From contig NZ_LGKN01000003.1 of the NCBI RefSeq assembly GCF_001306175.1, forward strand, positions 124,001 through 188,000: 64,000 nt of DNA, written 5' to 3'. Positions 5,141 to 54,807 of the stretch are shown one piece after another. Below the pieces are notes generated by a model. That model saw only the letters and a list, made by a program, of their open reading frames with translations, did not search any database and was not told the origin of the DNA. The stretch is from Ardenticatena maritima. GTDB lineage: Bacteria > Chloroflexota > Anaerolineae > Ardenticatenales > Ardenticatenaceae. Position numbers and translations under genes: made by a program. The stretch's first letter is position 1; every line of letters starts with the position of its first letter.

Positions 5141-7927
5141 TTAGTTGCGGCTTTCGCGCAGCATGTTGCGCAACACCGTGTGGAGAATGCCGCCGTTGCG
5201 GTAGTATTCGACTTCCACGGGCGTATCCAGGCGCACAATGACCTCGAAGGTCTTGGTCTCGCCGCTTTCGGAGTCGGTGGCTTGCACGGTCAACGTCTGG
5301 CGCGGTTGCAGGTCGTTGTCAATGCCGAGGATGTCGTACACTTCGCGCCCCGTCAGCCCGAGCGATTCGGCGTTTTCGCCTTCCTTGAATTGCAGCGGCA
5401 GGACGCCCATCCCCACCAGGTTGCTGCGGTGGATACGCTCGAACGATTCGGCGATGACCGCTTTGATTCCCAGCAGGTAGGTGCCTTTGGCCGCCCAGTC
5501 GCGCGAACTACCGGTGCCGTATTCCTTGCCGGCGATGACCAGCAACGGCGTGCCGTCTTGCTTGTAGCGCATGGCGGCGTCGTAAATCCACATTTCTTCG
5601 CCCGTGGGGAAGTAAACCGTCCAGCCGCCTTCCTTGCCGGGCACCAGTTTGTTGCGCAGGCGCACGTTGGCGAACGTCCCGCGCATCATCACTTCGTGGT
5701 TGCCGCGGCGTGCGCCGTAGGTGTTGAAGTCCTTGGGCTGGACGCCCTTGGAGAGCAGGTATTGCCCGGCGGGGCTGTTCACCAGAATGGGACCGGCGGG
5801 CGAGATGTGGTCGGTGGTGATGGTGTCGCCCAGCAAGGCGAGCACGCGCGCCCCACGGATAGGCGTCAGGTCGGGCACGTCGAGCGGGAAGTCCATGAAG
5901 AAGGGCGGTTCCTGGATGTAGGTTGAATTCGGATCCCACTCGTAAATTTTGCCCTTGGGAATTTCGAGCGCCTTCCAGTGCTCATCGCCTTCAAAGACGT
6001 TGGCGTACTCTTCGCGGTACATTTCAGGCTTGAGGGCGCGGCGAATGTACGAGCGGATTTCTTCCTGCGTCGGCCAGATGTCGCGCAGATAGACGGGTTG
6101 CCCGTTGGGGTCGTGCCCGATGGGTTCGTGCTCGAAGTCAATATCCACCGTGCCCGCCAGCGCAAAGGCGATGACCAGCGGCGGCGAGGCGAGGTAGTTG
6201 GCGCGCACGTAGGGGTTGATACGCCCTTCAAAGTTGCGGTTGCCGCTGAGCACAGCGCTTACCACCAGGTCGTTTTCGGTGATGGCGTTGGCAATGGCTT
6301 CTGGCAGCGGACCACTGTTGCCAATGCAGGTGGTGCAGCCGTAGCCGACGATGTGGAAGCGCAGCGCTTCGAGGAAGGGCAGCAACCCCGATTCTTCCAG
6401 ATACTTGCTCACCACGCGCGAACCAGGTGCAAGGCTGGTTTTGACGTGCGGCTTGACCGTCAAACCGCGCTCCACGGCTTTCTTGGCGAGCAAGCCCGCG
6501 CCAATCATCACCGAGGGGTTGGACGTGTTGGTGCACGAGGTGATGGCGGCGATGACCGTCGAGCCGTGCGTGATGTGGGCGTCCACGTCGTCAATGCTGA
6601 ATTCGACTTCGTGGTTCTTGTAGAGCGAGGTGCGTTCGGTGCTGGTGGGCAGTTCCTTGCCCGTTTCGAGCGCCTCAATCACCTCGGGGTCAATGCCGGT
6701 GGTGTCCACCTCGCGCCCAAAGGTTTTCTTCATGTCGAGCCAGAACGAGCGCTTGATGTCTTTCAGCAAAATGCGGTCTTGCGGGCGCTTGGGACCAGCC
6801 ACGCTGGGCTGCACGGTGCCCATGTCGAGTTCGAGCGTGTCGGTATAGACCGGTTCGGGCGCGTCATCAGTGCGGAAGAGCCCTTGCTCCTTGGTGTAGC
6901 GTTCGACAAGGTCCACCAGTTCTTCACTGCGACCGGTGCCGATGAGATAGCGCAGGGTTTCTTCGTCCACGGGGAAGAAGCCCATGGTTGCGCCGTATTC
7001 GGGCGCCATGTTGGCAATGGTCGCGCGGTCGGCGAGGCTCAGTTTGCTGACGCCGGGACCGTAGAATTCGACGAATTTCCCGACGACGCCTTTCTGGCGC
7101 AGCATTTGGGTGATGGTGAGCACCAGGTCGGTCGCCGTCGCGCCTTCGGGCAGTTCACCGTAGAGTTTGAAGCCCACCACTTCGGGGATGAGCATGTAGA
7201 TGGGTTGCCCCAGCATGTTGGCTTCGGCTTCAATCCCGCCGACGCCCCAGCCAAGCACACCCAGCCCGTTGATCATGGTGGTGTGCGAGTCGGTCCCCAC
7301 CAGCGAGTCGGGGAAGGCCACACGCTCGCCGTTCACTTCGACCAGGTGCACCACCTTCGCCAGATATTCGAGGTTGACCTGGTGGATGATACCGGTGGCC
7401 GGCGGCACCACGCGGAAGTTGTCGAACGCCGTTTGCGCCCAGCGCAACAGCGTGTAGCGCTCGCGGTTGCGTTCGTATTCGCGTTCCGCGTTGAAGAAGA
7501 GCGCATACGCCGAACCGAACGCATCCACCTGCACGGAGTGGTCAATCACCAGGTCGGCGGGGATGTGGGGATTGATGCGGGTCGGGTCGCCACCGTAGCG
7601 CTGCATGGCGGAGCGCATCGCCGCGAGGTCCACCACGGCGGGCACACCCGTGAAGTCTTGCAGGACGACGCGGGCGGGCAAGTAGGGCACTTCGCGCGCC
7701 GGCACGTTCTTCGCGTCATAGCCCGCCAGTGTCGCCACGTCCTCTTCCGTCACGCGGAAGCCGTCCACCTGCCGCAACACCGATTCCAGCAGGACGCGGA
7801 TGGAGTAGGGCAACCGCGAGATGGTGCCGAGCCCCTCTTCTTCGAGGCGGCTCAAGCGATAGATGACAGCTGGGCCACTGCCGGTTTCAAAGGTATCTTT
7901 TGCGCCGAATGGGTTTGGTAAAGTCAT
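5141..7927 (-). CDS. acnA: Aconitate hydratase A
   Basis: The 928-residue protein is full length for the AcnA/IRP1 type. It interconverts citrate and isocitrate in the TCA cycle with a cytoplasmic [4Fe-4S] cluster. Cluster cysteines are visible in [11 protein letters not shown] and [13 protein letters not shown]. The substrate-binding motifs [18 protein letters not shown] and [11 protein letters not shown] are intact. The start has a GAGGTG site. The gene follows the GYD-protein gene by 26 bp on the same strand and probably shares its promoter. A strong terminator follows. Together with sucA/sucB at the other end of the window it indicates an oxidative TCA cycle. Confidence 0.98.
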
Positions 7928-50098: not shown

Positions 50099-50848
50099 CT
50101 ACCATTCCAGCACAGAGACGGGGCTTTGGTGGGCGAGCGCCAGCCCCGCACGGAATGAAAGCCCCAATGGCGGATACCCCAACGCATGCGCGGCGTCATC
50201 TCCAAAGAGAGCCACCAGGATGGTGGCGTAGTTGTCGGTGTCGAGCAGGGGCGTCAGCACGTCGCGCGTATAGGCGGCGTCGTCATCGGGGAGGCGTGGT
50301 GTGGACGCGCCGGCAAATTGGAGCACCACTTGCTCCTGGCGCAAATGTTCGCGGAGCGTGCGGGCGACGCCGTGTTGCGCCACGTAGCAGGTGCGGGCAA
50401 ACGCTGCCAAGGCGGCGACGCGGGCGTTTTCCAACGATGGGGGTTCGCTTGTCCAGAGCAAGCCAACCGCCCACCCCCGCTTGAGCAAGGGCGTGATGTC
50501 AAAGGTCGCCGCGTATTCGGTCGTGTAGCGGTTCGTCCATTGCCCGTGGGCGTCATCGGCGAGTACCAGCGCCACACGCAGGGAAGGGAGAGGGCATGCA
50601 AGCGTTGCGCTTTTCTGCATGAGCGCGTGGGCGGCGTGAGTATCCGCATCCATTGCGAGATACGCATCCAGACACGTGGCGACATGCTCTTTCCCCATAG
50701 GGTTGAGCGCCATAAGCGGCAAGGCGATGTCGCCGCGTTCGGCGTCGAGCATGGTGCGCAGGTAGGCGCGGAACCGTTCCATGCCGCGCGGCTGGTCGTA
50801 CAAGCGCCGTTGTTCGTTGAGCAAAGGCACATATGCGATTGATGCCAT
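50099..50848 (-). CDS. Uncharacterised protein
   Basis: I do not recognise this 249-residue protein. It is a plausible gene: ATG 50848 heads a long frame with normal codon bias, though the upstream sequence (GGGTGTCAA) holds only a weak site. It is soluble, without signal or membrane segment, and has alternating helix and strand signals such as PSLRVALVLADDAHG and YATILVALFGDD. Its C-terminal phrase GYPPLGLSFRAGLALAHQ gives no family match. It lies convergent with pgeF and divergent from the Trm112-like gene. No function is proposed. Confidence 0.65.
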   Translation of the reverse strand: MASIAYVPLLNEQRRLYDQPRGMERFRAYLRTMLDAERGDIALPLMALNPMGKEHVATCLDAYLAMDADTHAAHALMQKSATLACPLPSLRVALVLADDAHGQWTNRYTTEYAATFDITPLLKRGWAVGLLWTSEPPSLENARVAALAAFARTCYVAQHGVARTLREHLRQEQVVLQFAGASTPRLPDDDAAYTRDVLTPLLDTDNYATILVALFGDDAAHALGYPPLGLSFRAGLALAHQSPVSVLEW

Positions 50849-50919
50849 TTGACACCCCTCATGCTTCACGCTAGGCTACCACCGTCATGGACCCACTGGA
50901 TTGTGAGGAGGAAGCAAAA

Positions 50920-51342: not shown

Positions 51343-52038
51343 TTAGAGAACGCCTTTCGGCGGCAACAGGCGCAAATCTTCCACACCACTTTGCGGGTGG
51401 TCGAGGATGTGGAGTATCCAGGCGGCGACTTCCTCAGGCGTGAGCATGTTGCGGCGGTCCCATGCGCCTGGCACGGCTTCCCACAGTGGTGTTGCGGTTG
51501 CGCCGAGCGTCAGGTGGGTGACGTGAATGCCGCGCGGGCGCACTTCGTTGCGCAACGCTTCGGCAAAGCCGCGCACGCCGAACTTGGTGGCGCTGTACAC
51601 CGCCCAATTGGCGAACCCTGTTGCACCGGCAATGCTCCCTGGGATGACGATATGCCCGCCGTCCGCCATGTGCGGGAGCACAAGTTGCACCGTTTGAATC
51701 AGCCCCGTCAGATTGACCTCAATCATCGCACGCCACGCTTCAGGCGGCATCGCCTCGAATGCGCCGACGTGCGCCAGCCCGGCTGATGGAAAGAGCAGGT
51801 GGACGCTCTGCGCGGGTGCCGCAATGTGCGTGCGCACGGCGTCTTGCAAAGCGGCGGCGTCGCGCACGTCAACCGCGACGGGGCGACAGTGGTCGCCGTA
51901 TGTCTGGGTCAGGGCGTCCAGTGGTTCGGTGTGGCGCGCCAGGGCAATCACGCGCCACCCACGTTCCAGCAACGCCTGCGTGAGCGCCTTCCCAATGCCT
52001 TTACTGGCGCCGGTGATGAAAGCGGTTTGTCTGCTCAT
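51343..52038 (-). CDS. Short-chain dehydrogenase/reductase (possible sepiapterin-reductase-like)
   Basis: The 231-residue protein is a classical SDR. It has the cofactor motif [11 protein letters not shown] near the N-terminus (Arg at ALARH suggests NADPH), the NLTG segment in [11 protein letters not shown], the catalytic Ser in VIPGSIAG, and YSATK (YxxxK). The substrate cannot be read from motifs. Its start overlaps the folE stop by 4 bp in an operon with a PTPS gene, and a sepiapterin-type reductase is the missing third step of tetrahydrobiopterin synthesis. That role is inferred from context. Confidence 0.8.
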
Positions 52039-52685
52039 AGGTGTTCTCCACGTTGTACGAGGTTGACAAATTCGTTGCGTGTGCGTGGGTCGGTGCGGAA
52101 AATGCCGCGCATGGCGCTTGAAACCATGCGCGCGTTGGCTTTCTTCACGCCGCGCATCATCGAGCACATGTGCATGCCTTCGACCACCACCGCCACGCCT
52201 TTTGGCGAAAGCGTTTCTTCCAGAAAATCGGCAATCTGCACGGTCATGCGTTCTTGCACTTGCAGGCGGCGGGCGAACATGTCCACCACGCGCGGAATTT
52301 TGCTCAGCCCAATGACGCGCCCGTTGGGAATGTAGGCGACGTGGGCATGCCCGAAGAAGGGGAGCAGGTGGTGTTCGCAGAGGCTGTAAAACTCGATGTC
52401 GCGCACAATCACCATTTCATCGTAGGAAATGTCGAACAGGGCGTCGTTGACCAGTTCTTCGGGGTCTACGTAATAGCCCGCCGTGAGTTCGGCATACATG
52501 CGGGCTACCCGTTCCGGCGTGCGTTCCAGTCCTTCGCGTGTGGGGTCTTCGCCAATCGCTTCCAGCAAGGCGCGCACAGCCTGGGCGGTGGTGTCGGTGT
52601 TGGCAAGCGCGGCGGTGCGCGCCTGGGCGCGTATAGCGGTATCCAATTGGTTGAGGATGGGATGTTCGTCATGTGCGTGTGTCAT
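52035..52685 (-). CDS. folE: GTP cyclohydrolase I
   Basis: The 216-residue protein has all FolE motifs: [14 protein letters not shown], the zinc Cys and His in [33 protein letters not shown], and CSMMRGVKK with the second zinc Cys. It turns GTP into 7,8-dihydroneopterin triphosphate in the cytoplasm. Its position between a triple-PTPS gene (29 bp upstream) and an SDR gene (4-bp overlap) suggests use for a biopterin-like cofactor, in addition to or instead of folate. The N-terminal 30 residues are variable. Confidence 0.97.
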
Positions 52686-52714: not shown

Positions 52715-53971
52715 TTATTTTTCGGCGCCCTGAAAGTGTGGGGCGCGTCCGTATTCAAAAAGGTTGTTGGGGGTCTCCCAAATGGCGATGTGATGCAAAC
52801 GTTCGCCGAAAGCATGCGCAAAAGCGTTCCACAGGTAGGTGAGCAGGTTTTCGGTCGTGGCGACGTGCGTTTGGAAAAAGGGGATGTCGGCGTCCAGACG
52901 TTTGAACGCCACTTGTTCGATGACCGCTTGGGCGGCGCGGTCGGTTTCGACAAGGTCGGCGGCAATGCCCCACCGTTCATCGAGCGGGGCGCGCAGCGTG
53001 AGCACAACGCGGTACGAGTGCCCATGCCCATGTGGGTTGGCGCATTTGCCGTAGAGCCGCCGATTTTCGGCTTCGCTCAGGTTGGGGTTTGCCATGCGGT
53101 GCGCCGCGGAGAAGGTGTATTCGCGGATGAAGTCGCGCCACGGTTCGCCTTCGGTGGCGGCGCGAAAGTCGGGTAGTTCGGCGAGTTCGGCGCGCAGTAC
53201 GGCGATGTCGGGAACGAGGGTGGCGGCTTCTTCGCGCAAGCGGTCGAACAGCACGCCGACAATCGTTTCGGTGGTGGCGGCCTGGTTGCGGAAGTAGGGC
53301 AGGTCATCGTTGAGGTGGCAATGGTCGAATTCACGGCGCACGGTCTCCACCAGGGTGTCGAGATGGTCGGGATGGGCGAGCCAGCCAAATTCGGGGTGGC
53401 GTGCGCCGCCAAAGGTGGTGGTGAGGACGTAGTTGTGCCCGTGTGTGCGCGTGCAGACGCCAAAGCGCGCGCGGTTTTCATCCGCGGAGACGTGAGGGCT
53501 GGCGGTGCGGTGGGCGGCGCTGAAGAGGGTTCGTCGCCCGATGCGGATGTCGCCGCGAAGCCATTCGGCAAAGCGGTGTTCGTCTTCGTGCAGGCGCAAG
53601 CGTTCCAGCCGGATATCCGGCGGCAGGTGCGGCGCAATGGCGTCGGCCAGCGCGTCCGCGATGGCTTCCAGAGTAGCGGGGCGTGTGGTGAAGTAGGGCG
53701 TTTCGATGTTGAGGTGGCGGTGGTCGAACGCTTCAAGCACCGTGTTGACCGTCTGCTTGAGGTCCACCACGTTCATGGTCATGCCTGTGTCGGGGTTGAC
53801 GGTGCCGCTGACGGTCACAAAGAGCGTGAAGTTGCTCCCGTAGCCGTGCGGCGACGCCAGGCGTCCGAACAGGCGGCGATTTTGCTCTGCCGACCAATCG
53901 GTGCGCCACAGTTGGCGCGAGGCGCAGAACTCGAAGCGCTTGGTTGTCCAGATGCGTGGTTGAAGCGTCAT
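52715..53971 (-). CDS. Three-domain 6-pyruvoyl-tetrahydropterin synthase (PTPS) fusion
   Basis: The 418-residue protein contains three consecutive PTPS/QueD-type T-fold domains (about 11-133, 147-265 and 284-418). Domain 2 is intact: zinc His154 in SAAH, Cys173, His177 and His179 in THGHNY, and Asp216-His217. Domain 1 lacks the first zinc His (CASR replaces AAH), has Leu38 where Cys is expected and HGYGS for HGHNY, but keeps Asp83-His84. Domain 3 keeps His291, Cys310, the HGHGH site and Glu399, but lacks the Asp-His pair (VAFKRLDAD). Usual PTPS proteins have one domain and assemble as two trimers. Its start overlaps the upstream membrane-enzyme gene by 4 bp. PTPS makes 6-pyruvoyl- or 6-carboxytetrahydropterin from the FolE product. 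Confidence 0.9.
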
Positions 53972-54807
53972 GAACGTATCTCCTCGGAGTGGGTTGCTTG
54001 ATGCAGAAGGCGGCGACGCCAGGCGAGCAGAAGCAGGGCATACGCGTTCAGGACGACGCCGAACACAAAGGGGGCGCGCGCCACCCGCCGACGCCACGCC
54101 AGCAGGGCGAAGAGCGCCAGTTGGCTGCCGAGCCCCAGCGCCGACAGCGCCGTCATGAAGCGACGGGGCGGCAAGGTGAAGGTGCGCCCGGTCGCCAGGC
54201 GGTCAAGCCGCGCCACGAGGCGGTCTTGCCAGCCGTAGATGAGCAGGTACGCACGTTGGAACAGGCGCGTCGCGCGTGGGGGGTCCCACGGGTAGGGGCG
54301 TGCGTGGCGTTCGTCCGGCAGGCTGGTGCGTTCGCCGGGCAGGGTGTGGCGATAGAGCACGTAGTAGTAATTGTAGAGCGAGCATTGCAACAGCATGCTC
54401 ACCAGCCCCGCCGCAGCGGCAAGCCAATCACGGGGGCGGTTGCCGCGCCGATACGCCACCGCAGCAAACAGCGCCGCGTTGACGACAAAATCCGCCACGG
54501 AGTCCGCGTAGCGCCCCAGGCGCGAGGGGCGTTGGCGAATGCGCGCCAGCGCGCCGTCCATGCCGTCCAGCAGGTGCTTCACCAGCAGAAGCAGGGCGGC
54601 AACGCGGTCGAGGCGGGGCGTGTTGCGCAGGAGCGCCAGCGCCGCGCCAATGCCCGCGGCGAGAAAGCCGCCCGTCAAATGCAGCGGCTGGATGGGGCTT
54701 TGTGCCAGGCGCGCGACCGCGGCGTGGGTGATTCGCCCGCCAAAGCCGCTGAGATCGTAGAAGGCGTATTCAGGCGGAAGTTTGGTGGCGATGGGTTGTC
54801 TGTTCAT
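53968..54807 (-). CDS. CDP-alcohol phosphatidyltransferase family membrane protein
   Basis: The 279-residue protein has the CDP-alcohol phosphotransferase signature: DGALAR followed by a G and two Asp in RLGRYADSVADF (pattern DG-x2-AR-x8-G-x3-D-x3-D). Several membrane helices precede and follow it. It transfers an alcohol-phosphate from a CDP-activated donor to a second alcohol, as in phospholipid or inositol-lipid synthesis. It is the first gene of the coupled pterin operon, which is odd for a lipid enzyme. The acceptor is unknown. Confidence 0.85.
   Translation of the reverse strand: MNRQPIATKLPPEYAFYDLSGFGGRITHAAVARLAQSPIQPLHLTGGFLAAGIGAALALLRNTPRLDRVAALLLLVKHLLDGMDGALARIRQRPSRLGRYADSVADFVVNAALFAAVAYRRGNRPRDWLAAAAGLVSMLLQCSLYNYYYVLYRHTLPGERTSLPDERHARPYPWDPPRATRLFQRAYLLIYGWQDRLVARLDRLATGRTFTLPPRRFMTALSALGLGSQLALFALLAWRRRVARAPFVFGVVLNAYALLLLAWRRRLLHQATHSEEIRS

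Follow-up and report, generated by a model that had tools for sequence, protein, structure and literature searches.

A three-domain PTPS-family polypeptide with complementary losses of catalytic residues in Ardenticatena maritima

Here we describe a 418-residue polypeptide, encoded in a 64,000-nucleotide stretch of Ardenticatena maritima DNA (the window), in which three domains of the 6-pyruvoyl-tetrahydropterin synthase (PTPS) family lie in one chain. The zinc triad, the catalytic Cys and the Asp-His pair of PTPS are complete in the middle domain (D2) and divided between the first (D1) and third (D3). With a probability of about one half, we read this protein as a PTPS-II-type chain for tetrahydrobiopterin-like synthesis that would form a pseudo-trimer with one decayed site, D2 pairing with D2′ and D3 with D1′ of a second copy. 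The residue patterns suggest that each working site probably draws its residues from more than one domain.

Domain architecture and catalytic residues

The chain and its domains occupy the following window positions; residues are given in alignment order, zinc His1-Cys-His2-His3 and then Asp-His.

52715..53971, minus strand: triple PTPS (6-pyruvoyl-tetrahydropterin synthase family) polypeptide, 418 aa; three Pfam PTPS domains and an AlphaFold model
53555..53971, minus strand: domain 1 (aa 1–139), R19-L38-Y44-S46 / D83-H84; zinc His and Cys lost, Asp-His kept
53138..53554, minus strand: domain 2 (aa 140–278), H154-C173-H177-H179 / D216-H217; full set
52718..53137, minus strand: domain 3 (aa 279–418), H291-C310-H316-H318 / A355-F356; zinc ligands and Cys kept, Asp-His replaced

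The open reading frame starts at an ATG at 53971, preceded by a Shine–Dalgarno sequence (GAGGAG), and its stop codon ends at 52715. The Pfam PTPS profile (PF01242) recognises three domains in the 418-aa chain, which scores 230.7 bits (cut-off 22.4), and a six-frame search of the genome with the PTPS profile returns three separate matches at this gene, each of 71–83 bits and all above the same cut-off. The presence of three PTPS (T-fold) domains in tandem, proposed in a preliminary description made from the DNA letters, is thereby confirmed. The closest solved relatives of D3 are the rat and human PTPS, and entries 1b66 and 3i2b are the top sequence and structure matches for the likeness to PTPS-II.

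The same description had D2 intact and D3 with a zinc site and Cys but without Asp-His, and the alignment agrees on both counts. For D1, it rightly noted that Cys is lost and Asp-His kept, but the loss that it confined to the first zinc His extends to all three zinc His. Between the window chain and its counterpart in a second Ardenticatena genome (G425), dN/dS is 0.14–0.16 in each domain, which argues that purifying selection acts on D1 and D3 as it does on D2.

Prediction of the monomer structure, a check suggested at the outset, yielded a compact and confident AlphaFold model (pLDDT 87.4, pTM 0.87, 16 aligned sequences). Taken alone, D2 of the model superposes on QueD (Z 15) and D1 on rat PTPS (Z 12.7). 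Together, D1 and D2 superpose on the tandem T-folds of uricase over approximately 220 residues (Z 11–12, r.m.s.d. 4.5–5.6). In a model of a two-domain relative (L076; pLDDT 88.7, pTM 0.81), the two domains together instead match bimodular QueF (183 residues, Z 10, r.m.s.d. 5.6), and uricase is matched by one domain only among the VIA-align matches listed.

Relatives and the direction of loss

A search for relatives in about 1,160 Chloroflexota genomes returned four further triple chains (in G425, G311, G785 and G798), bringing the total to five and ruling out that the triple is unique to this genome. In all four, D2 retains its full set and D3 is devoid of Asp-His; the preliminary description had suggested looking for such chains by profile search. 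A separate scan of contigs yielded no more than a single triple and a single two-domain protein, as its patterns were narrow. The triple of G425 is 84% identical to the window chain and has the same residue pattern (D1 RLYS-DH). The pattern of losses recurs in G311 and G785, from two divergent families of the class (D1 R-QH-DH and R-HN-DH, respectively), and partly in a third family represented by G798, the D1 of which is shortened and has lost both Cys and Asp-His. Across the five triples, D1 lacks Cys in every case and keeps Asp-His in four; D2 is HCHH/DH throughout; and D3 is HCHH throughout, with DH replaced by AF (window chain and G425), DY (G311 and G785) or QE (G798). Because the pattern is kept in G425, recurs in G311 and G785 and is partly present in G798, it reflects more than chance.

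The search also identified approximately 43 two-domain PTPS proteins, mostly from the class of genome G118, that join a D1-like to a D3-like domain. These uncharacterised proteins occur in Chloroflexia and Herpetosiphonaceae. In a tree of the domains, D1 of the window chain is kin to the N-terminal and D3 to the C-terminal domains of the two-domain proteins; D2, which sits on a long branch, is not placed by the tree. Losses in the two-domain proteins are confined to Cys in the first domain (replaced by Y, A or G) and to Asp-His in the last (replaced by DF, DY or HL); the two are combined in a single clade and in one additional protein. In two reading frames for two-domain PTPS (L036 and L037), about 55–100 residues lie between two complete domains.

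A direction of loss is apparent in the multi-domain proteins counted together: 17 of 48 have a broken zinc/Cys half in their first domain and none has one in its last, and Asp-His is broken in the last domain of 29 of 48 and in the first domain of one. On a tree built without the catalytic-residue columns, the deep branches of which are weak, zinc/Cys changes number five in the first domain and none in the last, and Asp-His changes three in the last and one in the first. A Fisher test done by hand on these nine changes gives 6/126 = 0.048 (one-sided), so the directional trend rests on few events.

In three genomes (L040, L041 and L042), two adjacent single-domain PTPS genes, both complete, are followed by a short-chain dehydrogenase (SDR) gene; these adjacent pairs are likely to represent the state before fusion. 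The triple would then be the end of a series running from single genes through adjacent pairs and two-domain fusions. Fused subunits with shared sites should be free to shed complementary halves, and within a single phylum the family displays such loss stepwise: intact, half-eroded and fully split forms are all extant.

Genome context and likely function

The triple gene is the second of four in an operon, with 4-bp overlaps at two junctions; in operon order its companions, with the triple between the first two, are:

53968..54807, minus strand: CDP-alcohol phosphatidyltransferase (PF01066), overlapping the start of the triple gene by 4 bp
52035..52685, minus strand: FolE, GTP cyclohydrolase I (Pfam 267 bits, TIGR00063), 29 bp downstream of the triple gene
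51343..52038, minus strand: SDR (PF00106), overlapping folE by 4 bp

FolE makes the substrate of PTPS, and it neighbours PTPS in nearly all relatives. The order PTPS-FolE-SDR is found in most of them, and an SDR gene is a frequent neighbour across the phylum. The sequence match of the SDR is generic, sepiapterin reductase (2bd0, 5e-18) being one of many matches, and the protein is a candidate for a sepiapterin-reductase-like step. The CDP-alcohol phosphatidyltransferase gene lies directly upstream of the triple in four of the five genomes, and no match to it was found at the two-domain PTPS loci. In the Herpetosiphonaceae locus L076, a reductase-like reading frame (6515–7372) replaces the SDR after the two-domain PTPS and FolE. 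Elsewhere in the window, a 256-aa reading frame (50099–50869, minus strand) has no Pfam or NCBIfam match.

PTPS classes differ in the motif around the catalytic Cys, CxxxHGH in PTPS-I and CxxxxxHGH in PTPS-II (PMC5041015). D3 has the PTPS-II motif. D2 has the PTPS-I spacing in the window chain and CxxxxxHGH in G311, G785 and G798. The ExxHGH motif of PTPS-III is absent from all three domains and the genome contains FolB (111.9 bits), which argues against a PTPS-III role in folate synthesis. A QueD role in queuosine synthesis was rejected on genome content, as the QueE model has no match in the genome and QueC has a weak partial match only. Given the FolE and SDR neighbours, the presence of FolB, the failure to find QueE and the PTPS-II motif of D3, tetrahydrobiopterin-type synthesis appears to be the likeliest role. 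Searches of the genome for tetrahydrobiopterin users (aromatic amino acid hydroxylase, NO synthase and the fatty-acid-hydroxylase family, including alkylglycerol monooxygenase) returned no match. A Pterin_4a (pterin-4a-carbinolamine dehydratase) domain lies in a 351-codon open frame (L167, G000:C5:402790-403059), and no pterin-dependent hydroxylase was found. The genome also encodes a second, single-domain PTPS-like protein (L001, G000:C4:667442-667798), in which HTH takes the place of HGH and Cys is missing from its usual position; the model nearest to it is TIGR03112, and it scores below the cut-off of that model.

The triple chain passes the NCBIfam QueD equivalog cut-off (112.7 versus 89.25 bits) by summing three stretches. 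Multi-domain chains of this kind may therefore be misnamed QueD, a possible mis-scoring that the fusion explains.

Proposed site pairing, alternatives and known systems

PTPS is a dimer of trimers in which each site lies between three adjacent monomers (PMC7546909), and an intersubunit catalytic triad is named in the title of a paper that it cites (Burgisser 1995). In the mechanism that we propose, the three T-folds of one chain would replace the three subunits of the trimeric PTPS ring, and two chains would replace the hexamer. Each PTPS site would combine the zinc/Cys half of one subunit with the Asp-His of another, and fusion would end the equivalence of the three sites in a chain. If zinc/Cys and Asp-His come from different subunits, all of the D1 and D3 losses in the window chain fall on one site; this composite site would have decayed, its zinc/Cys half in D1 and its Asp-His half in D3. 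Two sites per chain would stay whole, so each chain is predicted to carry two zincs and to work at two sites. Composite sites that share residues between domains had been envisaged in the preliminary description, and the idea gains backing from the like-directed losses in the five triples and the approximately 43 two-domain relatives. Ring closure, domain pairing, activity and product are all predicted for the triple.

The favoured pairing would run across two rings, D2 with D2′ and the zinc/Cys of D3 with the Asp-His of D1′. We favour it because alternation around a ring of three members is impossible for a two-domain chain, because it accommodates G798, in which only D2 has the full set, and because of the chain pairing in the rat enzyme. 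Papers on rat PTPS reportedly name the Cys of chain A with the Asp-His of chain B. The rat PTPS structure entries contain two chains each, so that, if the threefold axis is crystallographic, A and B would belong to different trimers. The D3 of G798 may be without a partner, since Asp-His is lost in its D1 too. The family makes the identity of the Asp-His donor subunit testable, one domain being mutated at a time. A fuller version, somewhat less likely than not, is that of a naturally evolved single-chain pseudo-trimer that would function as a dimer, in which four sites would be live, in two kinds (D2–D2′ and D3–D1′), and two would be dead; it would stand at the end of a traceable series within one phylum.

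The live sites could instead lie between neighbours inside one ring, the Cys of D2 working with D1 and D3 with the Asp-His of D2, while the closing D1–D3 site is dead. This arrangement is consistent with the same residue pattern, and the uricase-like, side-by-side packing of D1 and D2 in the model is in keeping with it. We nevertheless consider it rather unlikely: the two-domain model pairs like bimodular QueF and, among the matches listed, not like uricase, the two-domain chains meet the difficulty of alternation noted above, and the D2–D1 site of G798 would be lost. The opposite ring direction, in which Cys would work with the Asp-His of the following domain, is also unlikely and would strand D2 residues that are conserved in all five triples. 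It is improbable, too, that D2 is the only catalytic domain, self-paired in a dimer, with D1 and D3 as structural or regulatory pseudo-domains carrying leftover residues. D2 is indeed the sole domain complete in all five triples, and G798 has degeneration in D1 as well as in D3. Leftovers, however, would not persist as selectively as the HCHH of D3 (five of five) and the Asp-His of D1 (four of five), and the two-domain relatives are split in the same way without any D2.

Two further explanations appear remote. The chain might combine two activities, D2 (CxxxHGH) serving as a QueD in queuosine synthesis and D3 (CxxxxxHGH) as a PTPS-II, as the PTPS-I spacing of the Ardenticatena D2 and the score above the QueD cut-off would allow; against this stand the QueE and QueC results, the CxxxxxHGH motif in D2 of the three more distant triples, and the summing of three domains in the QueD score. 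Equally far-fetched is a decaying paralogue heading for loss. Catalytic residues have gone from two of the three domains, but each domain has a dN/dS of about 0.15, genomes from four families share the pattern, and the gene belongs to a compact operon that includes 4-bp overlaps.

The cross-ring arrangement that we favour can be set against known systems. PTPS-II of rat and human (PF01242, TIGR00039) has the fold common to each domain of the triple and the CxxxxxHGH motif seen in D3. The known PTPS-II enzymes assemble as homohexamers of single-domain chains, all of their sites being complete and alike, whereas the triple has three unequal domains in one chain. The two-domain PTPS of Chloroflexia and Herpetosiphonaceae resemble it in their like-directed losses and in their FolE and, often, SDR neighbours; they differ in having no middle domain, in a first domain that keeps its zinc residues and loses only Cys, and in their modelled packing. 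The preliminary description knew of no three-domain PTPS, and we found no description of tandem, fused or triple PTPS in the open-access literature searched, so the many characterised triples that would have counted against its reading did not turn up.

Other T-fold proteins offer precedents for divided sites. In bimodular QueF of Vibrio cholerae and Escherichia coli, catalytic elements are split between tandem T-folds and the site is interdomain (PMC5372742); it differs in having two domains, a different chemistry and no tunnel. Plant GTP cyclohydrolase I, in the pterin branch, is likewise bimodular with tandem T-folds, and its separate domains are inactive (PMC5372827); it too has two domains and is a different enzyme. 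The principle of a split site is thus already known with two T-folds, and what the open-access papers searched do not describe is a set of three domains with conserved, complementary losses. Uricase resembles the triple in having tandem T-folds side by side in one chain, as in the superposition of D1–D2 described above; it forms a four-domain ring, and differs in having two domains per chain, no metal cofactor and another reaction.
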